From the NCBI RefSeq assembly GCF_018320785.1, contig NC_054884.1:18477667-18541666 (forward strand): a stretch of DNA of 64,000 nucleotides. Direction: 5' to 3'. A program made the translations under genes and the position numbers. The notes under the pieces are model-generated. The model had not been told where the DNA came from, made no database searches, and saw nothing but the letters and a program-made list of their open reading frames with translations. Source of the stretch: Cheilinus undulatus. Lineage: Eukaryota; Chordata; Actinopteri; Labriformes; Labridae. Of the stretch, positions 21,701-50,600 are shown piece by piece. The number at the start of each line of letters is the position of its first letter. Position 1 is the first letter of the stretch.

Positions 21701-24700
21701 TTGATTTAGTACGACCACAATGCCAAGATATTGTCTTTTTTGTGAAGGTGAATCATTAAAACATTTAAAAATAAGATCTTTCATTGAATATATGTCTCTG
21801 CTTTTGAATGGTATTAACAGAACCAACTCTTATTCTGCTGTAATTCAATGTGGAAAATGTCCAAGTTTTTCTCAGTGAGTCCCTGTTTTGCAGGCTTGTA
21901 CAGAGGATGCTTTAAATGAACTTCGCAATGAGCTCACATTCACCTTTGAAGGCGTGCCAAATGGAGGTCTGAGCCCCAGTCTTTCCCAGCAGGCTCAGAC
22001 TTCAGCCTTCTATCCTGTAAGTTTAAAGTTCTTCAAAAACATATATTCCTTCTTATTTCTGCATTAGTTCAGATTTGAAACACAAGACTAATACTGATCA
22101 CGTTATTCACAGCTACAGGTCGTCCTGCAGCACCTACCAAGGGCTTGCTCACTAGCAAAATCATTTTCCACAAAACATGACTTAAACTTACTTCAAACAT
22201 TACAACAACATCCTCACAAAACTCTAAACATGTAAGACAGTTATTTCAGACTTGTTTGCTGTATTTCTTTACCATGGACATACCTGAAAAAGAGGAGAGT
22301 CATGAGATTGATTCTGTGCTGTCTCCTCATCAAGAGCTTTTAGTAAAATGTGGAAAACACCGCATATCCCCCTAGTGTGTTTGTGAGGCAAAAGCAATCA
22401 ATCACAGATGATCTTAGCTCAGCCTACTGAGTAGAGAAAAGATAAAATGACTAAATCTGGCTTGTAACATGAAAGAATGAGGTGAACAGTGTATTTTAAA
22501 CATTCTTTTAGCACTGAAATTACTTTCTGTTAAATTAAACTGATTTTAAAAAGTATTTTAAATATTTTTTAATATTGTAATCGCTTTTAATGATTTTTTC
22601 CTGTGGATATACCATGTTCTTACCCTTAATCAAATCTTGAATAATTTGCAAACCATGAACTTGTTGTTTTTATCCTTACATGCTCATGGATGACTTTTTG
22701 ACCTGTCACATTTTAACATGCTAGTATACAGATAATCAACAAAGTTTATTGTAGCAGTAAAGAAAAATCAAAGCTTTTGTCACTAGTTTTTGAGAAGTCC
22801 GTATCACAAAATGGATCATTTTACAATTCAGGGGCTCTTGTCCATGATGTCTTCCCTCCAAAGCCATGTTGGCTCATTGCTGAATTCAATAACAAAAGCA
22901 GGATTGCAAATTTATTACTCCTGTTATTGTGTTTTCTCTCTTCTTAACTAAGTGTGTTTTTTCTGACACTCTCTTCAACAGTTAGGATTTGAGATCAACT
23001 GCGGCACTGATGACAAATGTGTAGATGACCTGAAAGTGGATATCAGCTTTGGCAAGTGAGTTGCCACACTCCAGACCTACCAGTGTTTGTGAATGAGCAA
23101 GAAAAAGGGGTTCAGTCAAAAAACACTCTCATTATACATTTTACCATTTCATGCAAAATGGATGTACTGTTTGACTTGGCAGAGAAGGCTCTGCTCAAAA
23201 GATAATCCCTGGGTTAGTAAAGCAGCATACACTGACTTTCCAGGGAGCAAATGGCTAAAAACCCTCACATGCATAGATACATTTATGACAATGTGTATTG
23301 AATGCAACAAAATTAGTTTAAATTAAATAAATTAATAATAGAATTAATCTGAATGAGGGTGCAAAAAGCTTTATACTATGAAGGAGGAGGCTGGGGTGGA
23401 GGAGGTTAAGCTTTGCCAGATGCAGCAGCATGGAGCTGCAGCATTAGTGCAAGCAGGGATTAGAAGGAAGAGCATCATTTTTAAATACACTGCTGTGTTG
23501 AGAGAAAGAGCTGTTATTGGCTGTGGGGGCTGGGAGGTGATCATCAGGATCATTAGTTTTTCATACAGGGCCAGGTAGGTTTGTTACGGTGGCCCTGAAG
23601 GCCAACACAAAATAAATATTTCAAAAGCGCAAAATATATTTCCGAAAACACAAAAACATTTCACAATACACAAAAACATTTCACAAAACACAAATACATT
23701 TCACAATACACAAAAACATTTCACCAGTCGCAAAATACATTTCACAAAACACAAAAACATTTCTCAATACATTTCACCAATCGCACAATACACAAAAACA
23801 TTTCACCAATCACAAAATACATTTCACAAAACACAAAAACATTTCACAATACACAAAAACATTTCACAAAACACAAAAACATTTCACAAAACACAAAAAC
23901 ATTTCACAAAACACAAAAACATTTCACAAAACACAAAAACATTTCACAATACACAAAAACATTTCACAATACACAAAAGCATTTCACCAATCGCAAAATA
24001 CATTTCACAAAACACAAAAACATTTCACAATACACAAAAACATTTCACCAATCGCAAAATACATTTCACAAAACACAAAAACATTTCACAATTCACAAAA
24101 ACATTTCACAAAACACAAAAACATTTCACAAAACACAAAAACATTTCACAAAACACAAAAACATTTCACAAAACACAAAAACATTTCACCGATCGCAAAA
24201 TACATTTCACAATACACAAAAACATTTCACCGATCGCAAAATACATTTCACGAAACCGGAAAGGGTAGGACCATGGTACTTGTTTGTGATTGGCTAAACC
24301 CAAGTCTGTCCGGCATCAGTCATTTATCATTTCCTGTTTATACTTCTTACCGCAATAGCCGAGCGAGCACGAAATTTCAAGTGTCTACCGGCATGGAAGA
24401 GGAACTTGAGTTGATAGCGGAATACGTCAACAAGGGAAATACATATAGTGTGATTCTTGATATGCTCTCCTCATATCATGACATACACATTTCAATTGGA
24501 AGCCTAAAATCGCGCTTAAAGTGTCGTGCCAAAAGAAGTACCCCCGGTAGGATTTGTATCCCCCTGCCGCCTTTGCCGAAGGAGTTGACTATTGACTATC
24601 AGGCGTAGATTTCGCCTCAGTGAATAAAAATGACAATAAAAGAATGTATAAAGCAGAAGATTAGTTTTGATCATCTGTTTTATTCATCATTATCGTGTTT

Positions 24701-27700
24701 TTGTCGGTAATATCTTTTAAAATAAGATCTTTTAAGTGAATGTTTTAATACTGCAGCTTGGTGCACACTCATTACGCCGAACTGAGAACGCATCTTTTTC
24801 CTCCTGCGTCCTGTCATTGTATTTTGGCGGCGTGTTGGTCATCAAATCTGGGTCCACGCTGCTGTACATGAGTAACAGACATATTTTCTTCATAACTTTT
24901 ATCATCTTCTATTAGCGCTGTTTAGCGTCAAGCCGCTGACATGCACTCACCACTTCCCACTTCCGCCTCGAGATATTTCAAAATAAAGGTCCTGCATAGC
25001 CATTTCACTGAATATTAACTTGTCTATTGACCAGTCTGAACAAGATTTATGTACAGAGAGATCAATTTCAGACCATTTATTTCAACACATCGTCCACTTC
25101 GACTGCATCCCACTCTAAACAAGTGTTTCACAGTGTAAAGAACTGTAAAAAACAAAGGAACATTTAATTGCGATCAAATATGTCATCTCTTCAGGGTGTA
25201 TAAATGGTGCAAAGTGTATCCCCCCTCCAGAATGCTCAAATCATGAACTACCATCATAACATTCATTTTGTGTTCATTTCTGATCAAGCCTGATAATACT
25301 GGAGAGTTTGAACAGGTTAACTCACTTCTATTTCAAGTTACAGGGGGATACAAATTATTTCAGGGCCAAATCTAGGCCTGATGTATTTGTTATCCCCCCT
25401 CTAACTTCAAGAATAATGCTTCAAACTTCTCCAAAGTCCCAAATGTCATCAGTTGTCATGAGAGCTGGCCAAGAAAAGTCTATTGAGGCAGGGGGCCCCA
25501 CCTCTTCCTTGTGGATGGGGGTACAAATCCTGGCAAGGCTAAAATGAGACCTAAAATCATTTGTAATTTGCATTAAAGCAAAGACAAGGCAGTAGTACAC
25601 CATTTATACACCCTGAAGAGAGGACATAACAATTTGTATCCCCTGTAACTTGAAATAGAAGTGAGTTAACCTGTTCAAACTCTCCAGTATTATCAGGCTT
25701 GATCAGAAATGAACACAAAATGAATGTTATGATGGTAGTTCATGATTTGAGCATTCTGGAGGGGGGATACACTTTGCACCATTTATACACCCTGAAGAGA
25801 TGACATATTTGATCGCAATGAAATGTTCCTTTGTTTTTTACAGTTCTTTACACTGTGAAACACTTGTTTAGAGTGGGATGCAGTCGAAGTGGACGATGCG
25901 TTGAAATAAATGGTCTGAAATTGATCTCTCTGTACATAAATCTTGTTCAGACTGGTCAATAGACAAGTTAATATTCAGTGAAATGGCTATGCAGGACCTT
26001 TATTTTGAAATATCTCGAGGCGGAAGTGGGAAGTGGTGAGTGCATGTCAGCGGCTTGACGCTAAACAGCGCTAATAGAAGATGATAAAAGTTATGAAGAA
26101 AATATGTCTGTTACTCATGTACAGCAGCGTGGACCCAGATTTGATGACCAACACGCCGCCAAAATACCATGACAGGACGCAGGAGGAAAAAGATGCGTTC
26201 TCAGTTCGGCGTAATGAGTGTGCACCAAGCTGCAGTATCAAAACATTCACTTAAAAGATCTTATTTTAAAAGATATTACTGACAAAAACACGATAATGAA
26301 GAATAAAACAGATGATCAAAACTAATCTTCTGCTTTATACATTCTTTTATTGTCATTTTTATTCACTGAGGCGAAATCTACGCCTGATAGTCAATAGTCA
26401 ACTCCTTCGGCAAAGGCGGCAGGGGGATACAAATCCTACCGGGGGTACTTCTTTTGGCACGACACTTTAAGCGCGATTTTAGGCTTCCAATTGAAATGTG
26501 TATGTCATGATATGAGGAGAGCATATCAAGAATCACACTATATGTATTTCCCTTGTTGACGTATTCCGCTATCAACTCAAGTTCCTCTTCCATGCCGGTA
26601 GACACTTGAAATTTCGTGCTCGCTCGGCTATTGCGGTAAGAAGTATAAACAGGAAATGATAAATGACTGATGCCGGACAGACTTGGGTTTAGCCAATCAC
26701 AAACAAGTACCATGGTCCTACCCTTTCCGGTTTCGTGAAATGTATTTTGCGATCGGTGAAATGTTTTTGTGTATTGTGAAATGTATTTTGCGATCGGTGA
26801 AATGTTTTTGTGTTTTGTGAAATGTTTTTGTGTTTTGTGAAATGTTTTTGTGTATTGTGAAATGTATTTTGCGATCGGTGAAATGTTTTTGTGTTTTGTG
26901 AAATGTTTTTGTGTTTTGTGAAATGTTTTTGTGTTTTGTGAAATGTTTTTGTGTATTGTGAAATGTTTTTGTGTATTGTGAAATGTATTTGTGTTTTGTG
27001 ATTTTTTTTTGTGTATTGTGAAATGTTTTTGTGTTTTGTGATTTTTTTTTGTGTATTGTGAAATGTTTTTGTGTATTGTGAAATGTATTTGTGTTTTGTG
27101 AAATGTTTTTGTGTATTGTGAAATGTATTTGTGTTTTGTGAAATGTATTTTGCGATTGGTAAAATGTTTTGTGTATTGTGAAATGTATTTGTGCATTGTG
27201 AAATGTATTTGTGTTTTGTGAAATGTTTTTGTGTATTGTGAAATGTATTTGTGTTTTGTGGAATGTTTTTGTGTATTGTGAAATGTATTTGTGTATTGTG
27301 AAATGTTTTTGTGTATTGTGAAATGTTTTTGTGTTTTGTGAAATGTTTTTGTGTATTGTGAAATGTATTTGTGTTTTGTGAAATGTTTTTGTGTATTGTG
27401 AAATGTATTTTGCGATTGGTGAAATGTTTTGTGTATTGTGAAATGTATTTGTGCATTGTGAAATGTATTTGTGTTTTGTGAAATGTTTTTGTGTATTGTG
27501 AAATGTTTTTGTGTTTTGTGAAATGTTTTTGTGTATTGTGAAATGTTTTTGTGATTTGTGAAATGTATTTTGCGATTGGTGAAATGTTTTTGTGCATTGT
27601 GAAATGTTTTTGTGTTTTGTGAAATGTTTTTGTGTATTGTGAAATGTTTTTGTGTTTTGTGAAATATATTTTGCGCTTTTGAAATATTTATTTTGTGTTG

Positions 27701-30700
27701 GCCTTCAGGGCCACCGTAGTTTGTACAGTGGTGGAAAAAAGTTTTAGGACACCCCATGCATTTGTGAAATATTGTGTTAAGAATCACTCAAGTGCAATTA
27801 ATTTTAGTACAGTCACAGCCAAAATACTAAACAAATCCTAAAAAGCCATTAAAAACTTAAAATTGATTTGTTCCATAAAAATACATAAGAAATTTTGAGT
27901 ATTAGGTCATTTTGGTACCAGTGATCTACGAATGAAGTTCGTGCTTTTTATTAAAAGATACAACTTTTGTTGCCATGGTTCGTGTCTATATAAAGCCAGC
28001 ACATTTGAAAGTTCCTCAGAGACAAAAATGGCTAAAACAAGGAACCTAACGCAGGAAACATGCCTGAAGATACTGATTCTCAGCCAAGAAGGGTACAGCT
28101 GCCGCCAGATAGCCAGGAAGTTCAGATGCAGTCCTTCAGCAGTTGGATACACTCGCAGAAATACAGACGAACCAACAGCTTGAAAGACAAACTAAGATCT
28201 GGGCGTCCAAGGGTTTCTTCAGCAAGAAATGACCACATCCTGAGCCGCATGTGCAGGGAAAACTGCCGTATGACATACCAGGAGCTTCAGCAGCAGTGGT
28301 CAAACCAAACTGGTGTACAGTGTTCCACCCTCACTGTACATGGCCGACTTTTAGATCATGGCTTTAGGTCCTACAAGGCTGTCAAGAAGCCCCTGATCAG
28401 CCCCTGAGAGACGTGTTGGTCATCTCACTGTCTGTGAAGGCACACTGAACTCTGCCAAGTATTGTGCCATTCTCAAAACCCACATGCTTCCTTCTGCACG
28501 TGCACTGTTTCGTTGAGGTCAAAACTGGATGTTTCAACAAGATAAAGCCCCTTGCCACACATCCAGGGCCAGTAGAACTTGGCTGCAGGAGCACAGTATC
28601 CAGGTCTTAGAGAGGCCAGCTCAATTCCCGGACATGAGCCCTATTGAAAATCTGTGGTGGATTCTCAAAAGGTCTGTTTCAAAGCGTAAACCAAAGAATT
28701 TAGATGAATTAAAAGCAGTAATTCAAGAAGAATGGGACAAGATTACCCCTCAACAGTGTGAAAGGCTTGTGGGGAACATGCCAGCCAGGATTAGAGCTCT
28801 ACTGCGTGCTAATGGCAGGACTACTAAATATTAATTTGATGATGCAATGGTTTATTTATGTTTTGTTCAGTTTTGAACACATTCTCTATTATTTGTTGAC
28901 TTTGATACCGACAATGTTGAGAACTGACAGATTGAAACTGTCAAGAATTTAGTTTTGTTTGTGTTTTTTGTAAACAATAAACAAAAAGTATATCATTTGT
29001 ATTTGTTTGTGTCTGTCTAATGCAGCCACACCTTTTGAAACACAAAAAAAAAAATTTTCCACAAATATTCCGTGATAACATTTGAGATTGTGTAAAATTT
29101 TAAGGGTGTCCTAAAACTTTTTTTCCACCACTGTATGTCTTTTTTCCTCTGATACATAAAATCAGCATTTAAAAACTGCATTTTGTGTTTACTTAGTTTA
29201 TCTTTGTCTGATACTAAAATTTGCATGTGCAAATAGCAAAATATGTTACAAAAAAAGATAAGCCAGGAAAGGGGAAAATTCTTTTTCATTGCACTGTAGG
29301 TCAAACCTTGCTGTGCCTCAGACTTATTAAAGTCTTGTTTTTTCACTTTCATTTCCTCTTTGTTTATTGTGTGTTAGGTCATCAGTGGTTAAAGTTGGCA
29401 TTGATGAACTTCTAGATGTCACCGTCACAGTAACAAACAGGGGAGAAGACTCCTACAATACTCGTGTCATTCTTACATATCCAGCTGGGCTTTCCTACAG
29501 GAAGATTGCACCTCAGCAGGTGAGGCATCCAGTCTATGGTTTCATCTTTATCAAAGTTTCTCTTGGTTCACACAGAGAAACAAGTTGTTTTGTTGATTTC
29601 TATTTTAACATTTATTTTCAATGTAGGGGAGAATTGAGTGCAATTCTTTGGACAGTGAGACTGGATTATCACGAGGAACGACAGACTGCACTATCAACCA
29701 GCCCATCCTCAGGACTGGTGCTACGGTTAGTTTCTCTGTGGGAGAGAGGATTTTATCTACCTGCTGCAAAAAGAGGAAGAAGTCTAACGACTCTCACTGA
29801 TTTCCTTTTAGGCTGTGGTCATCATCTCCTATGGGATTGACAGCAACAGTCAACTTAACAACAACATATTTTTCACTGCAAATGTGACAAGGTACAAGAA
29901 ATTTATAATCCTGTTTGTTTGTGTTAATAACTCCTTTTGCTATCTGAATGTATGCTTTGACATCTCTTTAAGTGGGAATCAGGACCACTCTGACTCTAGT
30001 GAACTCTACGCAAGGAGAGACATTGATGTGAAATACAGCATTTTTGCTACGATACAGAGGTTTGTGTTATTTGATGTCAAATTACCAGAAAAGATATCGA
30101 TTCATCAAATCAGACCTTTGATTACTTAATATTTAAATTTTCTTTTTTAGCTCCCTCAGCTACAACAATTTCTCCTATGGAAAAAATGACTTGCAGAAAC
30201 CAGTCCAGCAATCCATTTTGGTAAATCTCAGAATACCAACAATAATTTAAAGAATCAAAATCTCTATTCAGACTAAAGCGCTTTACCTGGATAGAACTGA
30301 AACACTTTTATTTTTCTCCTCCTCTCTACAAGGTTGCAAATGATGTCCGAGCTCTGAATTTCACTGTCGTGATTAAGGTGCCAGTGAAGCTTGGAGAAAA
30401 AGACATCTGGGTTGATTCAAGTAGTTTTCAGGTAAAGTTGGAATTTACTGTAACCCTGAACTGTCCTAATTTCTGGGTGCTGGTTTAGTTATGGTGGGAG
30501 CAGCAGTCCTCATACCAGTCACAGATATGATCCTGATCCTGCTGCACGTTTGATGCATGTTTCCCTCCACTCACATTGTTACTGTCCCTCTTCAGCTGTC
30601 CTACCAAAATAAAAGCCAAAGCCCCCAAAACTTCTTTAAACAAGACTAGGTTAGTATATGGCTGATGCCAACTGTCTGAGATGTCTGTAGTAATGCCAGA

Positions 30701-33700: not shown

Positions 33701-36700
33701 GACCAGGGGGGAATTTGAAGAGCTGTGGCTGTTAACAGTGACTGAGAATGTTCTCTGAGAATGTAAGAGGAAAACCAATCAATGGCTGAGCCAGAAATGC
33801 CCACCCACTGCTTCAGCCTATCAACTAAAATAATATGATCCACAGTGTCAAAGGCTGCACTGAGATCCAATAAAACCAACACAGAACATTTACCTTCATC
33901 ACAGCTGATCAGGAGGTCATTAAAAACTCTAAGAAGGGCTGATTCGGTTGAATGGGACTGACGAAAACCAGACTGAAACTTATCCAGGATGTTATGAGTG
34001 TCCAAGGCAGCTGTAAGTTGTTTGGCAACCACTTTTTCTAGAATTTTAGAAATAAAGGGTAGTTTTGAAATGGGCCTATAGTTTTGGGGCAGACAGGGGT
34101 CCAGGTTTGTTTTTTTGAGAAGTGGTTGAATGGCTGCATGTTTAAAATATGAAGGAACGTGACCAGATTCTAATGATTTATTGACAATTGAAAGAATGTA
34201 TGGGCCAATGGAATCTATTGCAGATTTTAGTAGCTGGGTGGGCAATATATCAAAGGGACTAGAGGAAATTTTCATAGTTCTTATCAGATTCTTTAGATCT
34301 TGTAGGGAGATGGGAGAGAACTTGTCCAGGATTGTTTGGTGAGGTGGGCAGGGAACAGCAGAAGAAAAAGATGGAGTGATTTGTGCTTGGATGTCATTGA
34401 TCTTGCTAACAAAAAAGGAAAGAAATCTTTCACACTCATCATCAGAGGAAATTGGGGGGGTGGGTGATGGAGAAGAGACAACATTATTAATAGTTTCAAA
34501 CAGGACTCTAGGATTATGTCTGTTCTGTGTTACAAGATTTGCAAAATACTTATCTCTGGCATCCTTAACCATATTATTAAATTCAGTTAAAAGCTCTTTT
34601 AGATGCTCTATAAACTCTATACAGCTGATAAAAAGAATTGAATCGCAAAAATACTGAGATTGAAAAAATTTAATCAGGAATGATTTTATGTTTTATCCAT
34701 TTTTCAGAAATCCATTTGTCAGCCATTATTATCAAATATTAGACATGTTAAACCCGTATTCGTCAGTCCATTCTTGATTTTTTTTTCTTCTTTTAAATGT
34801 TGTTTTCTGTGGTAACTTTTGATAACATGTTTTGGGAATGCAGTTTTCCTGTTTGGGTTTTTCACTTATCACTACACAACAAATCAGCATCAAACCCAGA
34901 GACAGACAACATGACAGCCACAGAAATATTCAGCTAAAATATCTCAGTCGCCCCCTTGTGACTGGCTGTGATATAGGGACTGATCTCACTATTAGAGCCT
35001 AAAAATTACATACATTTGAAAGAAAATGAAAATATTTCAACAAAATTATTTTAATAAGACTATTTCAAAATGTATTTTGTTTATTTGGAAATTCCAACCC
35101 CAGAGTGCCTGTTTCCGATTCAGATTGTGGGCACAGTTAGCAGGCACGAGTTTATTTAAGCCAGCTGGATATTGATCTGTGGTTGCATTGTGCAACTCAG
35201 GCCTACCCAGAGAAATGGACAGGCCTCTGAAAGCCCAGTAAGCTTGGCCCTACATCACCTTTTTTATTTTTCAGTGTTTGCAAATAGGTTAGCATTTGCA
35301 ATCAGTGCACCCTTTTTGTATATGATTAAATAAACACACAAATTGCTTTAAGAGAAAGGAAAGTAGTTTGCAATCAATAACAAATACAATATGTAATGGT
35401 GAATATTTAGGTGTTGTGGTAAATTTGGCTAGCAGTGCTTGAATTAGTGACAGGCCAAGTTATACACACCTCTATGGGCCTCCTCTTTCGGTTGGACCAC
35501 AGAGTACCAGCTCCCCTCACACATACTCATAGAACCAGGGTTATGCTCAGATTTTGCTTATAAGACTTTCCATGCATGAGAATGTCTCTGCTTTTCTTGT
35601 TTTCATCACAACAGGACTGCTCTGTAGCCAAATGTGGTGTGTTTAAGTGCAGAACGTTCATGGTAGGACTGGAGAAGAAAAAGTATCAAATCTCTGCCAA
35701 CCTCAGCTCTGGATGGATAGAACAGGTGAACCATGTGTTTACATTATGAATTCATTCGAACATTTTTGATTAAAGTTGGTCATGAGTGGTGGAACATCAT
35801 ATTCACTAACCATCTTATTGTTCAGATCGGCCTTGAATCTGCCAAATTCATCTTGACTAGCACAGCCACTCTGGATTACGACAAAGACCAGTACATCTTC
35901 ATTTCAACAGGGTCAAATAACAACCCCCCTATCAGAAAGGTAAGGCCACAATGATTCACTTATTCATGCTGTTGAAAAAGAGTTTGGATTTGATCCACAT
36001 CCTGTCTTTTCTTCCAACAGATCGAGGCAGAGGTAGAGGTGTATCCTGAACCTGACTTCACCAAAGAGATTGTGGGAGGGTCTGTGGGAGGACTGGTTCT
36101 ACTGGCTTTGATCACTGCTGGCCTGTATAAGGTGGGACACTAAACACACATGCACTTTCCTTTTTAGAGCAAAGTATTTTTTAAGCATGTGACTGTTGGG
36201 GCTTTCTCTTATCCACCTTATTTTCCCAGCCCCCATGATACCTTGCATGATTTGCATTACTTCCATTGCCTCTTGTCTCTGAATATGAAACAAATCCTGA
36301 TTATGAGTGTGATTTTTTTTTTTTTTTAGGTTGAACAGTATTATTTTTGTCTATATGATGCATTGATTTGTTGGCATTTAATTTTTTTCATTGCCTAAAA
36401 AATTGTATGAAACTCTTTGGTAAGCATTCTGCTTAGAATCCAAATGAAATAACTTTCTTTCTTCAATATGTAATATCTGATTCAGGCCCACAAATTCAAA
36501 GACCAGAAGATACAAAAAACAGTCAGACTGGGAGCGCAGCTCTATTACACCACTGTTAAAGGCACAAATTTGGCACAACATGAACTCTGAAAGCACATTT
36601 TAGGAAATCACAGCTCCTGCGCATGGTATAAATTAGTCAAGTACCTGATTTTTAGAAAAGACTTATATTGAACCTGCCACCATGGGTGGTTGGCCACTAT

Positions 36701-40500: not shown

Positions 40501-41614
40501 ACGCAGTTTGCAAGACGAACAGTCTCAGCATCTGCACAGTGGAGTTATAAGCCATCAGAGATTACTTTACTGCCTTCCTTTTGGGTTGTTTTGGTCAGAT
40601 ATGAGCCTCTAACACTCTGTTTTTTAAAATGGTCATCGAGAAGACTGGTTTGAATCAGTTGTATGTCAGATCAACATTGTGCACCCATACTGTGCCAAGG
40701 CCATGGAAGTGTACCATGCTGGAGCACAGTACAGACCAGTAACTCTTGTAAAACAACCTGGACCCAGTCTACCCTTTAGTCTTTTGAACAACTGGGCCCT
40801 AAATTTATCTGCAAAAACACTTGAATATTATTCTTTTTACCTGTTGAAGGTCCATGGTGACTGTGCAGATGTTCTCAGAATCTGAAGTACCTCCACAGCT
40901 TGCCACTTGAGTTTCCAGGTCTCGCATACTTGAGCCAGCTTTGTCAGCACAAAGATATATTCATATGAATACACAGTCTCAATAAAACCAATCTGCACAT
41001 GACATACATTAAATAGACTTTCATTTACAACATCTTTCAGCATACATTTTTTAAGAACCTTAAATCACCAGAGTGTTTAAACTCTTACCTCTGTTCTTGC
41101 TCTCCTCCCCCCACCCTGGCACCCAGCACTGACTTCCAATGGGGAAGGTTCTGGTGTTGCTGGTGTCCATACACACAGGCTGGATATGATCCTTGAAGCT
41201 GACTGTTTTAACAAGCTGCAGCAGTGCAATATTGGAGCCGGTCATTTTGCTCACTGTGATGTTCACAACACTGAGAGACATCTCAAACTGCTCAGAGCCG
41301 TTCACATGTTTGTGGCCTACATATGCAGTCCATTCACTGACATCTGGGCTAGACCTGTAGAGAAATGAAAAAGGTACAATAATTCAGGATTACAGTCCTG
41401 GATCTTTAAACAAATAATGAGGTAAAATGCTTTTACACTTACGCTGAGAAACAATCAGCAGAGGTGAGGACAAAGTTTTCAGCAATGAGAGTTCCAGCGC
41501 AAGAGTAAATGCCGTTTTTAAGGAGGCGAACCATCCAGGGCCACATTCCCCCAGGTACAACACCGCTGTCACCCACAGCTCGGCTATTCATGGGAGCTTT
41601 TCCACACACAGACC
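37589..41614 (-). CDS. Polyserase domain 6, catalytically dead, with hydrophobic C-terminus
   Basis: Exons 41443-41614, 41089-41354, 40841-40938, 37589-37840. The fold is kept ([64 protein letters not shown]). All three catalytic positions differ: His to Asp (codon 41454-41456), Asp to Asn (41231-41233), Ser to Gln in GDQGGP (37832-37834). The activation site RIVGG reads RAVGD. After the domain comes [16 protein letters not shown], then a hydrophobic run ending at the stop with no charged tail, which fits a GPI-anchor signal. A dead final domain is also known in some mammalian polyserases. Confidence 0.86.
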
Positions 41615-44600
41615 CTGAGAGAGAGAATTATGGTGATTTGAAGACAAATCAGAGAAAGAGGATTGACAAAAGTTCTGAATTCCTTGAGGAAAACAGATTC
41701 TTTCCAAGGCACTCACTCGGAGGATTGGTAACTGGAGAAGTTGTTGGAGATGGTGTAAGAGCAGGACAGGTGTAGCTGCTGTCAGCATCCAGCCCACTTG
41801 AGGTGAACTGGACAAAGCCTGGCTTATCGGAGCTGATATGAGAGTCGATCCAGGACTGGTAACGGGACACTCTGGAGTAGACCCCCGGAAGATTGGGCCG
41901 AGCACAGCCAAATCCAAAACTCACAACTCCAGACTGGACCCAGACGGAGCCCTGCTTACTCACCATTGGACCTCCCGAGTCACCCTGTGTGTTGGGAGGA
42001 GAGAATTGAAGGTCAGTGCTTTGGAGTGTAAATGATTGTGTGAATGCAATCAAAACAAAGACTGGATTCATGCCTGACACGAGTCTTTGCCTCCTGCCAG
42101 AACACCAGCACAGATCATGTTGTCTGTGACTGTCCCCACTCCATTGAGGCAGTTGCACTGTCGATTTCCCAGAACCGGCACCTCCACTTCTTGCAGCGTT
42201 TCAGGGAACGGTAAGGACACTGAGGGGACAACAGGAGGAGAGATGATTCAGACAACCACCTGCTGCTTATATGATACGTGGTCTAAAGTCATTGGCAGCA
42301 ACAAGCAGACTCACCTCCCTCCTGGACTGCACCCCAGCCAGTGACCCAGCTGTCTGTACCGTTGTTGAATTGACTGCCACTAGCTGCCAGACACACAGGT
42401 CTGATGTAGTCTGTGAATTGGACTGGTGTGGAGAGTCTGAGCAGAGCAATGTCGTTGTCATTGGTGGCACTGTTATAGCTGGGATGCAAAATAATAGTAG
42501 CAACATCCTTGGTCACTTCGCTTGGGTTGTCTCCTTGCAGGTTCTGGCCCAGAGACACCTGCCAATCAGCTGGGAGTTTCACTGAAATGAAATTGACAAA
42601 AAAAATTGTGGTTGAAGGAACAAGATGGACCAAATGCCATGCAACAGCAGAGGCTGAAAGACACCTGCTACAACTACCCACCTGGAGAAGCAGTGAGCAG
42701 CGCTCATCACCCACTCTCTGTTGATGAGGGAACCACCACAAAGATGTCTGCCAGAACTCTGCAGACTAGCCTGCCAGGGCCAACTTCCAGGTGGCGCATC
42801 TTCACCTCCAACTATCCTGTTGTTGAGGGGAGTGATGCCACACGCTGCAAACAATAAGGCATAAAAAATGGATCGTGACACAGCCCAGTAGGTTCTCATG
42901 ACTAGCTGCAGCTTTGTTAACCACCTAATTGAGTTCTCAACCATCATAATACATTTTGTGCATGAGTAATTGGCACAAAATTAGAGCCAGCTATTACAAC
43001 CCCCCTTTTAGTACAGTTTTGAACAGTCTGAGGCTGGCAAGTTTTTTTACCTAGTTGCAACAGATGCAGTGGTGGAAACATTAAACATGAACCAGTGAGT
43101 GCCAGTCATGTTGAGGCTGACAGAAACGCAGGGTGTGTTCTTCCACAATGTCACCTCAGTGTGTCATAATTTCTGCAAACTGGCAACCAGATGACAGGCA
43201 TGTCAGAAACATCGCTGCAACACGGATACTTACATTCAGCACTTGACATTGTGGATCCTTGATCTGTGGTTGTAAGATCTGGTGCAGCAGTAGTAGCAGT
43301 ATCATCAGGGGATGGCAGGCCAGGACAGGTGTAGGTGCTGTCAGCATCCAGCCCACTTGAGGTGAACTGGACAAAGCCTGGCTTATCGGAGCTGATATGA
43401 GAGTCGATCCAGGACTGGTAACGGGACACTCTGGAGTAGACCCCCGGAAGATTGGGCCGAGCACAGCCAAATCCAAAACTCACAACTCCAGACTGGACCC
43501 AGATGGAGCCCTGCTTACTCACCATTGGACCTCCCGAGTCACCCTGTGTGTTGGGAGCAAAGAATTGAAGGTCGGTGCTTTGGAGTGTAAATGATTGTGT
43601 GAATGCAATCAAAACAAAGACTGGATTCATGCCTGACACGAGTCTTTGCCTCCTGCCAGAACACCAGCACAGATCATGTTGTCTGTGACTGTCCCAACTC
43701 CATTGAGGCAGTTACACTGTCGATTTCCCAGAACCGGCACCTCCACTTCTTGCAGCGTTTCAGGGAACGGTAAGGACACTGAGGGGACAACAGGAGGAGA
43801 GATGATTCAGACAACCACCTGCTGCTTATATGATACGTGGTCTAAAGTCATTGGCAGCAACAAGCAGACTCACCTCCCTCCTGGACTGCACCCCAGCCAG
43901 TGACCCAGCTGTCTGTACCGTTGTTGAATTGACTGCCACTAGCTGCCAGACACACAGGTCTGATGTAGTCTGTGAATTGGACTGGTGTGGAGAGTCTGAG
44001 CAGAGCAATGTCGTTGTCATTGGTGGCACTGTTATAGCTGGGATGCAAAATAATAGTAGCAACTCTTTTGGTGACTTCGTTTGGGTTGTCTCCTTGCAGG
44101 CTCTGGCGGCCCAGAGACACCTGCCAATCACTGGGAGTTTCACTGAAATGAAATTGACAAAAAAAATTGTGGTTGAAGGAACAAGATGGACCAAATGCCA
44201 TGCAACAGCAGAGGCTGAAAGACACCTGCTACAACTACCCACCTGAAGAAGCAGTGAGCAGCAGTCATCACCCATTCCTTGGTGATGAGGGAACCACCAC
44301 AAACATGGCCGCCAAATATCTGCAGACTAGCCTGCCAGGGCCAACTTCCAGGTGGCGCGTCTTCACCTCCGACTATCCTGTTGTTGAGGGGAGTGATGCC
44401 ACATGCTGGAAACAATAGGGCATAAAAGATGGATCTTGACACAGCCCAGTAGGTTCTCATGACTAGCTGCAGCTTTGTTAACCACCTAATTGAATTCTCA
44501 ACCATCATAATACATTTTGAGCATGAGTAATTGGCACAAAATTAGTGCCAGCTATTACAACCCCCCTTTTAGTACGGTTTTAAACAGTCTGAGGCTGGCA

Positions 44601-47600
44601 AGTTTTTTTACCTAGTTGCAACAGATGCAGTGGTGGAAACATTAAACATGAACCAGTGAGTGCCAGTCATGTTGAGGCTGACAGAAACGCAGGGTGTGTT
44701 CTTCCACAATGTCACCTCAGTGTGTCATAATTTCTGCAAACTGGTAACCAGATGACAGGCATGTCAGAAACATCGCTGCAACACGGATACTTACATTCGG
44801 CACTTGACATTGTGGATCCTTGATCTGTGGTTGTAAGATCTGGTGCAGCAGTAGTAGCAGCATCATCAGGGGATGGCAGGCCAGGACAGGTGTAGCTGCT
44901 GTCAGCATCCAGCCCACTTGAGGTGAACTGGACAAAGCCTGGCTTATCGGAGCTGATATGAGAGTCGATCCAGGACTGGTAACGGGACACTCTGGAGTAG
45001 ACCCCCGGAAGATTGGGCCGAGCACAGCCAAATCCAAAACTCACAACTCCAGACTGGACCCAGACGGAGCCCTGCTTACTCACCATTGGACCTCCCGAGT
45101 CACCCTGTGTGTTGGGAGCAAAGAATTGAAGGTCGGTGCTTTGGAGTGTAAATGATTGTGTGAATGGAAGCGAAACAAAAACTGGATTCATGCCTGACAC
45201 GAGTCTTTGCCTCCTGCCAGAACACCAGCACAGATCATGTTGTCTGTGACTGTCCCCACTCCATTGAGGCAGTTGCACTGTCGATTTCCCAGAACCGGCA
45301 CCTCCACTTCTTGCAGCGTTTCAGGGAACGGTAAGGACACTGAGGGGACAACAGGAGGAGAGACGATTCAGGCAACCACCTGCGGCTTAGATGACGTGTG
45401 GTCTAAAGTCGTTGGCAGCAACAAGCAGACTCACCTCCCTCCTGGACTGCACCCCAGCCAGTGACCCAGCTGTCTGTACCGTTGTTGAATTGACTGCCAC
45501 TAGCTGCCAGACACACAGGTCTGATGTAGTCTGTGAATTGGACTGGTGTGGAAAGTCTGAGCAGAGCAATGTCGTTGTCGCTGGTGGCACTGTCGTAGTT
45601 GGGATGCAACACGATTGCGGCAACATCCTTGGTCACTTCGTTTGGGTTGTCTCCTTGCAGGCTCTGGCGGCCCAGAGACACCTGCCAATCACTGGGAGTT
45701 TCACTGAAATGAAATTGACAAAAAAAATTGTGGTTGAAGGAACAAGATGGACCAAATGCCATGCAACAGCAGAGGCTGAAAGACACCTGCTACAACTACC
45801 CACCTGAAGAAGCAGTGAGCAGCAGTCATCACCCATTCCTTGGTGATGAGGGAACCACCACAAACATGGCCGCCAAATATCTGCAGACTAGCCTGCCAGG
45901 GCCAACTTCCAGGTGGCGCGTCTTCACCTCCGACTATCCTGTTGTTGAGGGGAGTGATGCCACATGCTGGAAACAATAGGGCATAAAAGATGGATCTTGA
46001 CACAGCCCAGTAGGTTCTCATGACTAGCTGCAGCTTTGTTAACCACCTAATTGAATTCTCAACCATCATAATACATTTTGAGCATGAGTAATTGGCACAA
46101 AATTAGTGCCAGCTATTACAACCCCCCTTTTAGTACGGTTTTAAACAGTCTGAGGCTGGCAAGTTTTTTTACCTAGTTGCAACAGATGCAGTGGTGGAAA
46201 CATTAAACATGAACCAGTGAGTGCCAGTCATGTTGAGGCTGACAGAAACGCAGGGTGTGTTCTTCCACAATGTCACCTCAGTGTGTCATAATTTCTGCAA
46301 ACTGGCAACCAGATGACAGGCATGTCAGAAACCCGTTGCAACACAGATACTTACATTCAGCACTTGACATTGTGGATCCTTGATCTGTGGTTGTAAGATC
46401 TGGTGCAGCAGTAGTAGCAGTATCATCAGGGGATGGCAGGCCAGGACAGGTGTAGGTGCTGTCAGCATCCAGCCCACTTGAGGTGAACTGGACAAAGCCT
46501 GGCTTATCGGAGCTGATATGAGAGTCGATCCAGGACTGGTAACGGGACACTCTGGAGTAGACCCCCGGAAGATTGGGCCGAGCACAGCCAAATCCAAAAC
46601 TCACAACTCCAGACTGGACCCAGATGGAGCCCTGCTTACTCACCATTGGACCTCCCGAGTCACCCTGTGTGTTGGGAGCAAAGAATTGAAGGTCGGTGCT
46701 TTGGAGTGTAAATGATTGTGTGAATGCAATCAAAACAAAGACTGGATTCATGCCTGACACGAGTCTTTGCCTCCTGCCAGAACACCAGCACAGATCATGT
46801 TGTCTGTGACTGTCCCAACTCCATTGAGGCAGTTACACTGTCGATTTCCCAGAACCGGCACCTCCACTTCTTGCAGCGCTTTCAGGGAACGGTAAGGACA
46901 CTGAGGGGACAACAGGAGGAGAGATGATTCAGACAACCACCTGCTGCTTATATGATACGTGGTCTAAAGTCATTGGCAGCAACAAGCAGACTCACCTCCC
47001 TCCTGGACTGCACCCCAGCCAGTGACCCAGCTGTCTGTACCGTTGTTGAATTGACTGCCACTAGCTGCCAGACACACAGGTCTGATGTAGTCTGTGAATT
47101 GGACTGGTGTGGAGAGTCTGAGCAGAGCAATGTCGTTGTCATTGGTGGCACTGTTATAGCTGGGATGCAAAATAATAGTAGCAACTCTTTTGGTGACTTC
47201 GTTTGGGTTGTCTCCTTGCAGGCTCTGGCGGCCCAGAGACACCTGCCAATCACTGGGAGTTTCACTGAAATGAAATTGACAAAAAAAATTGTGGTTGAAG
47301 GAACAAGATGGACCAAATGCCATGCAACAGCAGAGGCTGAAAGACACCTGCTACAACTACCCACCTGAAGAAGCAGTGAGCAGCAGTCATCACCCATTCC
47401 TTGGTGATGAGGGAACCACCACAAACATGGCCGCCAAATATCTGCAGACTAGCCTGCCAGGGCCAACTTCCAGGTGGCGCGTCTTCACCTCCGACTATCC
47501 TGTTGTTGAGGGGAGTGATGCCACATGCTGGAAACAATAGGGCATAAAAGATGGATCTTGACACAGCCCAGTAGGTTCTCATGACTAGCTGCAGCTTTGT

Positions 47601-50600
47601 TAACCACCTAATTGAATTCTCAACCATCATAATACATTTTGAGCATGAGTAATTGGCACAAAATTAGTGCCAGCTATTACAACCCCCCTTTTAGTACGGT
47701 TTTAAACAGTCTGAGGCTGGCAAGTTTTTTTACCTAGTTGCAACAGATGCAGTGGTGGAAACATTAAACATGAACCAGTGAGTGCCAGTCATGTTGAGGC
47801 TGACAGAAACGCAGGGTGTGTTCTTCCACAATGTCACCTCAGTGTGTCATAATTTCTGCAAACTGGTAACCAGATGACAGGCATGTCAGAAACATCGCTG
47901 CAACACGGATACTTACATTCGGCACTTGACATTGTGGATCCTTGATCTGTGGTTGTAAGATCTGGTGCAGCAGTAGTAGCAGCATCATCAGGGGATGGCA
48001 GGCCAGGACAGGTGTAGCTGCTGTCAGCATCCAGCCCACTTGAGGTGAACTGGACAAAGCCTGGCTTATCGGAGCTGATATGAGAGTCGATCCAGGACTG
48101 GTAACGGGACACTCTGGAGTAGACCCCCGGAAGATTGGGCCGAGCACAGCCAAATCCAAAACTCACAACTCCAGACTGGACCCAGACGGAGCCCTGCTTA
48201 CTCACCATTGGACCTCCCGAGTCACCCTGTGTGTTGGGAGCAAAGAATTGAAGGTCGGTGCTTTGGAGTGTAAATGATTGTGTGAATGGAAGCGAAACAA
48301 AAACTGGATTCATGCCTGACACGAGTCTTTGCCTCCTGCCAGAACACCAGCACAGATCATGTTGTCTGTGACTGTCCCCACTCCATTGAGGCAGTTGCAC
48401 TGTCGATTTCCCAGAACCGGCACCTCCACTTCTTGCAGCGTTTCAGGGAACGGTAAGGACACTGAGGGGACAACAGGAGGAGAGACGATTCAGGCAACCA
48501 CCTGCGGCTTAGATGACGTGTGGTCTAAAGTCGTTGGCAGCAACAAGCAGACTCACCTCCCTCCTGGACTGCACCCCAGCCAGTGACCCAGCTGTCTGTA
48601 CCATTGTTGAATTGACTGCCACTAGCTGCCAGACACACAGGTCTGATGTAGTCTGTGAATTGGACTGGTGTGGAGAGTCTGAGCAGAGCAATGTCGTTGT
48701 CGCTGGTGGCACTGTCGTAGTTGGGATGCAACACGATTGCGGCAACATCCTTGGTCACTTCGTTTGGGTTGTCTCCTTGCAGGCTCTGGCGGCCCAGAGA
48801 CACCTGCCAATCACTGGGAGTTTCACTGAAATGAAATTGACAAAAAAAATTGTGGTTGAAGGAACAAGATGGACCAAATGCCATGCAACAGCAGAGGCTG
48901 AAAGACACCTGCTACAACTACCCACCTGAAGAAGCAGTGAGCAGCAGTCATCACCCATTCCTTGGTGATGAGGGAACCACCACAAACATGGCCGCCAAAT
49001 ATCTGCAGACTAGCCTGCCAGGGCCAACTTCCAGGTGGCGCGTCTTCACCTCCAACTATCCTGTTGTTGAGGGGAGTGTTCCCACATACTAGAAAACACA
49101 ATTTAGGTAGTCTAGACTTTACACAAAATTTAAGATATTTCTTCCATGCTGTACAAATCTTGCTGTTATCGACTTTACTTATTTTAAAGTTAGATTCTCA
49201 ACAATTTTTAAAGTTCAGGATCAAGAATGCATGTTTGACAATTTTTAAAATTTTTTTTTTTTACGTTTTCTTTCTACAGATTAACAAGTTCCCCTTTTCA
49301 GTATCCTTTTTTGCTTATATGCCAGATCTCAGTGGACTGATCTAAGATGTGACATTGCTTTATTTTTATTCCAGCGAAATAATGCCTGAAACATTGTACC
49401 CTTGAACCTGCTTTTTAACCTACATGTTGCGCTTCGTTTTCCAATGGACAAAAACATGATCTACATTCTTAGTAAGAAGTAAATATTCTTCAAAACACTG
49501 ATTTATCAAAAGTTATGCAATTTCCACTCCCCCCTCCCCCCATATTTTCTTTGTAATCTAATAACCGTAAAAGAGAGTAGGAGTCTATCAACAATACAGC
49601 AGTGATTAAAGTACTGTCAGATCCTCATATTATGTGAGACTGATGATAAAAAAGTATGACTTAAGCTTTTCCTTATTTCCTAGGAACTTTAAGCCTCGAA
49701 TTTAACCTCCTGTGTTTGTGCAACACAGCAAAAACACCTAGGTATTTTTCACATTAATTTAGAATCAAAGTATCAGTAATTACAAATACCAGAGTTTCAC
49801 AACAGCAACTGCACCTTTGGTTCTTATGAGTACAACATGCAATTACAGACTGCAGGGTCTCTATGGTCAGGTGTTCAAGGGTTAACAAAAAAGACAAACG
49901 TTATTCACTTTTTTCATACATTTGCTCTTAAGGATTTCTCTCTCATTCTCATTTTGTTCAGGGACACACCACTTCACCAACAAATGCTGATCTTTTTTTC
50001 TTATTTTTTACACACATTTCATGATATGCTCACCTATCACTATTTACATAACTCTTACCAAAAAATTCCTTGCAGTGGTTTGTTAAGTTGATTTTGCTGT
50101 GAGCCCCCCTTGTGTTACAAGGTAAGTTTCAAGTTGTAATGGGACAAAAATAAAATATTTTACTCACCATCAAGTTGAGCGAAAGTCTCTGGAATTAGAA
50201 ACACAATTTGGTCAGTCAGATCTAGTCAAAAATGTAACATCTCCTCAGGTTTGATTTTTTTATGTAGTCAAGGAAAGTTTTTGCAGACAAAATATACACT
50301 TCAGCAATGGAAACAGTATCTGGTGCCAGAGAAAGTTTTAAAATTGTAATTACTAAATCTTTGGTCTATCAATGAAAACTGTAAATAATAATAGGTTTTG
50401 TGTGATAATGATGACAAAGCTTCGTGTTCATTTTACTGACTTTTTACTTCAGGTGAGCACATGTTTAGCAGTGTTTTTTTTTTTTATAAGCTGTCTTAAA
50501 ATAAAATCACAATTTAGGTCACAATAAAGTGCAACAATAAAAATGTTGTTGCTATACTTAGCCACCCTGGCTTTTCTACATGAGACTTTATCTATGTAAG

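Follow-up and report, generated by a model that had tools for sequence, protein, structure and literature searches.

A foldback transposon family of probable IS3EU type in the genome of Cheilinus undulatus

In the labrid fish Cheilinus undulatus, a complete foldback element of 4,134 base pairs (bp) is inserted in a gene for an alpha-integrin with an I domain; coding sequence for its VWA and FG-GAP domains lies upstream of the element on that strand. The element was studied in a stretch of 64,000 nucleotides, here called the window (RefSeq assembly GCF_018320785.1, contig NC_054884.1, positions 18,477,667 to 18,541,666 of the forward strand). It occupies window positions 23585-27718 and has GTTTGT on both flanks. 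From the outside inwards, each side consists of a TAC..GTA tip followed by a 20-bp tandem array and then by an inner arm. The parts are as follows.

23579..23584: left target-site duplication, GTTTGT
23585..23613, plus strand: left terminal inverted repeat tip, TACGGTGGCCCTGAAGGCC...
23614..24256, plus strand: left 20-bp tandem array, 31.8 units
24257..25346, plus strand: A arm, inner part, numbered below as core 1-1090
24393..24608, plus strand: 71-codon frame of the A arm; codons 1-43 match the first exon of the partner transposase (see below), the remainder being read-through
25347..25639: spacer, 293 bp
25598-25628: old tip of the B arm inside the spacer (reversed core 953-923, one mismatch in 31)
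25640..26729, minus strand: B arm, inner part, extending beyond the junction of the other copies
26378..26593, minus strand: mirrored 71-codon frame, identical to that of the A arm
26735..27665, minus strand: right 20-bp tandem array, 46.3 units
27666..27718, minus strand: right terminal inverted repeat tip, ...GGCCTTCAGGGCCACCGTA
27719..27724: right target-site duplication, GTTTGT

The ends, the duplication and the arms had been proposed at these coordinates in an earlier interpretation made from the letters alone (the sequence-only reading), and re-reading of the window sequence confirmed them. In the outermost 100 bp of the two arms, 98 positions agree. The outer parts of the two sides are thus alike, but their arrays are of unequal length, and many gaps are needed to align these. 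The inner arms (24117-25346 and 25640-26869) are collinear inverted copies which align almost perfectly over 1,230 bp with 8 mismatches; for the inner part of the A and B arms, there are 6 differences over 1,090 bp. Thus, the window copy has the long inverted repeats with internal tandem repeats by which the foldback class is recognized.

A search of the genome with the first 616 bp of the element gave 92 matching stretches. Since 40 of the 329 first-look candidates were scored, the counts given here are lower bounds. When the matches were grouped, at least 33 places in the genome proved to have such ends, the two ends of an integrase-bearing partner element (see below) being counted as one place. 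I read 31 of the 33 places (the window, a first set of 20 and a second set of 10), leaving out C1:4.74 Mb and C1:2.02 Mb. They comprise the partner, 25 two-ended copies, and five copies with only one recognized end (L016, L018, L026, L031, and L036). With up to 6 errors in 30 bases allowed, like tips pair at 16 other loci in the first set and at 8 in the second set. Of the 25 two-ended copies, 18 lie between perfect 6-bp duplications (12 of 17 among the window and the first set, 6 of 8 in the second set), and 24 have TA at both ends, the exception being L009, which ends in CA. Thus, the sequence-only reading was right in calling this a foldback transposon with a genuine 6-bp duplication, and the further copies with such duplications that it had proposed to look for do exist. 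Inner sequence of 100 bp or more is present in each arm of 17 of the 25 two-ended copies and of the one-ended L036, one arm of L023 and of L032 attaining this length as two pieces; the second arm has less than 100 bp of inner sequence in L011, L013, L015, L017, L020, L022, L027, and L035. There are therefore at least 18 double-armed foldbacks in this genome. The length of the repeats, the perfect duplications and the same architecture at other loci together exclude chance.

The arrays and the ends of the inner blocks vary among the copies. In L013, L015, L021, and L023, one array has 114-242 units while the other has 3-21; through such unequal arrays, transposon ends might turn into satellite-like DNA. 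In L009, L011, L013, L015, L016, L019, L020, and L027, the longer inner block ends at core 907-941, a region which looks like an array unit by eye and may be a recombination site.

Which superfamily do these ends belong to? According to PMC10045372, the termini of complete IS3EU families are invariably TA..TA and their duplications are usually 6 bp long, and fungal IS3EU elements end in TAYGG..CCRTA with 6-bp duplications (PMC12730594); these and all other papers are cited here on the basis of part of their text. The window element has the ends TACGG..CCGTA and the duplication GTTTGT. The window copy itself lacks a transposase core. The integrase-type DDE (aspartate-aspartate-glutamate) transposase expected of IS3EU is represented, in part, in the partner, which spans 15,843 bp at C6:36095-51937 and has like ends, like arrays and the 6-bp duplication CAGAAC. 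On its minus strand, a frame of 146 residues (50034-50471) matches the Pfam integrase core PF24764 rva_4 partially, with an E-value of 2e-17. Upstream of this frame lies a first-exon-like frame (MEEENESIAEYF...), which matches codons 1-43 of the window frame less two codons, with 88% identity over 128 bp. Taken as a whole, the ends, the arrays, the duplications and the integrase core of the partner, along with the inner junction discussed below, support with a confidence of about 0.83 the reading of the window element as a non-autonomous foldback derived from an IS3EU-type DNA transposon, and the source of the foldback family is probably of IS3EU type. The guess of IS3EU in the sequence-only reading was thus largely borne out. 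As for the full-length partner with an integrase core that it had also proposed to look for, an integrase-core element with like ends was found, but its integrase gene is broken.

The partner may also indicate how the foldback is built. Its two ends have the array and a short following stretch in common and then diverge, the exon being on the right side only, and both arms of the window copy resemble this right, transposase-proximal side. Since the exon is found at only one end of the partner, the foldback looks like that end used twice, that is, like two transposase-proximal ends facing outward. No match to the window DNA at 24522-25640 was found among the partner pieces. A tblastn search with the integrase piece against all fetched loci and the window matched only L024, its own source, and a comparison of the piece with PDB sequences gave no match up to an E-value of 1. 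Two other sets of frames were noticed by eye inside the partner. Frames resembling a HECT ligase lie on the strand opposite to the integrase (L029 6543-7452, C6:42042-42951) and are a possible cargo gene; a HECT ligase is not claimed, as the best PDB match was Rsp5 with an E-value of 0.13 and there was no Pfam match. Tc1-like transposase frames (L029/L030, C6:43969-44898) appear to be a separate insertion.

The inner organization of the copies was then compared. A common block order starts with an array and core 1-1090, continues through one or two spacer blocks, and closes with the reversed core 953-1 and a second array. An intact junction of the spacer with the reversed core extends for 160-162 bp in L014, L028, L021, and L023 and for 110 bp in L027. 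The same order, at the level of blocks rather than base by base, is seen in L032, L033, L034, L036, L037, and L040. In summary, one inner junction is common to 10 of the 18 double-armed copies as well as to L027, and it is missing in six copies (L009, L012, L019, L025, L038, and L039). Two copies, that of the window and L010, have a second arm that reaches at least core 1090, and the 31-bp old arm tip persists in the former. The junction common to so many of the double-armed copies leads me to infer a single founding foldback, from which the shorter copies would be derived by deletion. The founder would have arisen when the transposase-proximal end (the array, the upstream region, and the start of exon 1) was copied inverted onto the opposite end, with about 1 kb of other DNA included in the inverted copy. 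The foldback copies would have been moved by a transposase made elsewhere, which would recognize the ends and perhaps the arrays.

Arms were compared within and between the ten copies with two long arms; L009, L012, L019, L023, L025, L027, L032, L038, and L039 were excluded as short or gapped. The mean divergence between the arms of one copy is 2.26%, compared with 3.40% for random pairings and 3.35% for reshuffles of A with B arms, and for neither scheme did any of 20,000 randomizations give a value as low as that observed. Sites were counted in eight of the ten copies over 900 positions: among the variable sites, 28 are copy-wise, with the variant present in both arms of a copy, 4 follow one arm type only, and 14 show a mixed pattern; a further 93 are singletons, and at 2 sites there are more than two bases. 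Arm divergence is lowest in L010 (0.28%), followed by the window copy (0.55%) and L014 (0.65%). The two copies extended past the junction are thus the ones with the most similar arms, which suggests arm-to-arm copying. In the tree of a smaller set, the arms pair in the window copy, L010, L014, L028, L021, and L009, and they do not in L012; the corresponding site count, from four copies, was 23 copy-wise, 0 arm-wise, and 7 mixed. The signal of arm copying is weaker with more copies yet present, and the larger set is relied on here. It seems, less firmly than the founder, that one arm has occasionally been overwritten from the other, and recently so in the window copy. The overwriting might proceed by intra-element gene conversion or break repair, either in the repair that follows excision or after a break in the palindrome. 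In the window copy, it would have taken the B arm past the old junction and left inner arms that are 99.4% identical.

The closer average likeness of the arms within a copy than in chance pairings would also be expected if each foldback had formed recently and separately, its arms being alike for that reason without any copying between them. However, eleven copies (L027 included) have one common inner junction. Moreover, at position 947, near the junction, the same difference between A and B arms is found in L014, L028, L033, L034, and L037, while the base of the A arm occurs in both arms of the window copy, L010, and L036, in L036 even though its arms are 3.9% apart. The junction and the pattern at position 947 fit one origin plus later overwriting, and separate origins are unlikely.

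Several observations weigh against the account given so far. The duplication is imperfect in 7 of the 25 two-ended copies: it is off by one base in L009, L011, and L021, seemingly shifted by one base in L020, and off at two bases in L027, while the flanks of L033 and L040 do not match each other. The partner has TACCG instead of TACGG at its left tip, although TA is present at both of its ends. The partner is itself broken, and where it matches the window copy the identity is only about 88%; it can therefore be regarded neither as the direct source of the foldbacks nor as their proven helper. As for overwriting, the own mate is the nearest relative of only 8 of 20 arms, and the arms are 2.0-5.0% apart in seven of the ten copies. 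At position 912, a base carried by three A arms is absent from both window arms; thus, the direction of copying is not uniform. L012 unites arms of two subfamilies; at several sites, one of its arms has the base of the window copy and the other has the base of the remaining copies, so that L012 looks chimeric. As for the integrase core, rva_4 is presumably the domain of IS3EU transposases.

The source may instead have belonged to another integrase-type group such as GingerRoot, Ginger, or a Polinton-like element. GingerRoot has 6-bp duplications and mostly TA..TA termini, the Polinton duplication is also 6 bp, and IS3EU and GingerRoot are not separated in the trees of PMC10045372, which slightly lowers the confidence in IS3EU. 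On the other hand, the duplication is 4 bp in Ginger1 and 4-5 bp in Ginger2 (PMC10045372), and the window ends with their 6-bp duplication fit the IS3EU pattern TAYGG..CCRTA (PMC12730594). I give these other groups a small chance only, and IS3EU remains the preferred assignment.

Both arms of the window copy carry an identical, open 71-codon frame, which the sequence-only reading took for an intact-looking coding exon whose mirrored arrangement would be unusual. This turned out to be a misreading. Only about 43 codons match the partner: codons 1-43 are the start of a transposase-like exon, and codons 44-71 are read-through into DNA that was not found in the partner. The mirrored arrangement is common, as near-full frames are present in both arms at 10 of the 30 non-partner places read. 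The frame was surveyed in 44 family matches (partner excluded), of which 36 are near-full. Among the near-full arms, 9 are open and 27 are broken, by a stop at codon 42 in 17 arms, by insertions or deletions in 9, and by loss of the start in 1. For all 44 matches, codons 1-41 show 56 distinct changes (12 synonymous, 40 nonsynonymous, and 4 stop), against a random expectation of about 23-27% synonymous, 71-73% nonsynonymous, and 2-4% stop; codons 43-71 show 11 synonymous, 20 nonsynonymous, and 1 stop. The changes are close to the random expectation and look neutral, with no sign of selection at the protein level. Since copies bearing a stop are found at many loci, the frame would be dispensable for movement. 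A frame that is open in both window arms and in 9 of 36 near-full arms might have encoded a working short protein kept by selection, such as a truncated DNA-binding transposase acting as a repressor of the full-length enzyme. This is very unlikely given the 27 broken arms and the near-random changes; in addition, a Pfam search with the 71 residues found no family, and a single-sequence AlphaFold model was poor (mean predicted local distance difference test score, pLDDT, 61.6) and was not used. The protein-like stretch in both arms is a decaying remnant.

That the palindrome is an artefact of assembly or of hairpin reads, for which long inverted repeats are a known source, is barely credible on the sequence at hand, because the two window arms have arrays of different length and disagree at 8 of 1,230 inner positions, a 6-bp target-site duplication marks the limit of the palindrome, inner sequence is present in both arms of 17 of the 25 two-ended copies, and the structure recurs at other loci with different flanks.

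The first foldback elements to be described came from Drosophila, and others were subsequently reported from several further organisms (PMC4079207). I regard the window element as an IS3EU-type counterpart of two Drosophila elements, Galileo and Tetris, of which Galileo is the closest precedent (PMC3573991). The '2RT' copies of Galileo likewise have long inverted ends with internal tandem repeats, their arms recruit inner sequence and lengthen, repeat numbers are unequal between the arms, and chimeric copies occur (PMC3573991). However, Galileo belongs to the P superfamily and its chimeric copies have 7-bp flanking sequences (PMC3573991), whereas the family described here has 6-bp duplications in place of the 7 bp of Galileo and the P superfamily, together with a partner in which an integrase core is encoded. 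A Pfam scan of nine partner frames, with no search aimed at these families, gave no match to THAP or P transposases. Tetris of Drosophila virilis is also a non-autonomous foldback with internal tandem repeats in its arms and no conserved reading frame, but its repeats are about 220 bp and its duplications 8-10 bp, and it has no known copy that bears a transposase (PMC4079207). In contrast, the unit here is 20 bp, and a like-ended partner with an integrase core was found.

The window copy shares with IS3EU (together with GingerRoot) the TA..TA termini, the TAYGG..CCRTA ends, the 6-bp duplications, and an integrase-core gene, here in the partner; it differs in having no transposase core and in having foldback arms and 20-bp arrays. 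No foldback form is described in the parts of the IS3EU papers covered (PMC10045372, PMC12730594, and PMC8268682), a comparison made outside Repbase. No literature on foldback elements among zebrafish transposons was found. In the portions of teleost-related papers covered, the term foldback occurs only in the reference list of PMC5638112 and only for Drosophila in PMC6431247. Thus, the novelty lies in the combination of IS3EU-type ends, foldback arms, and a common junction with later arm extension; priority is not claimed, as Repbase and Dfam were outside the comparison.

The neighbourhood contains other repeats and genes. Directly to the right of the foldback, at 27726-29133, lies a Tc1-like element whose TA target overlaps the right GTTTGT at its final base; by eye, it contains transposase-like frames at 27899-28831. 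A frame resembling a membrane span was noticed by eye downstream at 35994-36140, and a tandem array of near-identical serine-protease-like frames, also recognized by eye, occupies about 41600-49200 on the minus strand.

For the integrin gene, the element is one more intron insertion, and a long hairpin in the host transcript is possible. For transposon biology, Galileo causes inversions (PMC3573991) and Tetris seeds satellite DNA (PMC4079207). The presence of double-armed foldbacks and a like-ended integrase-core element in one genome ties a foldback family to a superfamily. A common junction with graded overwriting of the arms provides a series for studying the upkeep and extension of long palindromes. 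I tentatively suggest, while considering it somewhat doubtful, that the IS3EU-type foldbacks of this genome renew and lengthen themselves: after a single founding inversion of the transposase-proximal end, overwriting of one arm from the other would erase the differences between the arms and carry the palindrome beyond its former centre. If this is true, foldback arms would be a self-maintaining state, reached here independently of the Galileo lineage of the P superfamily.

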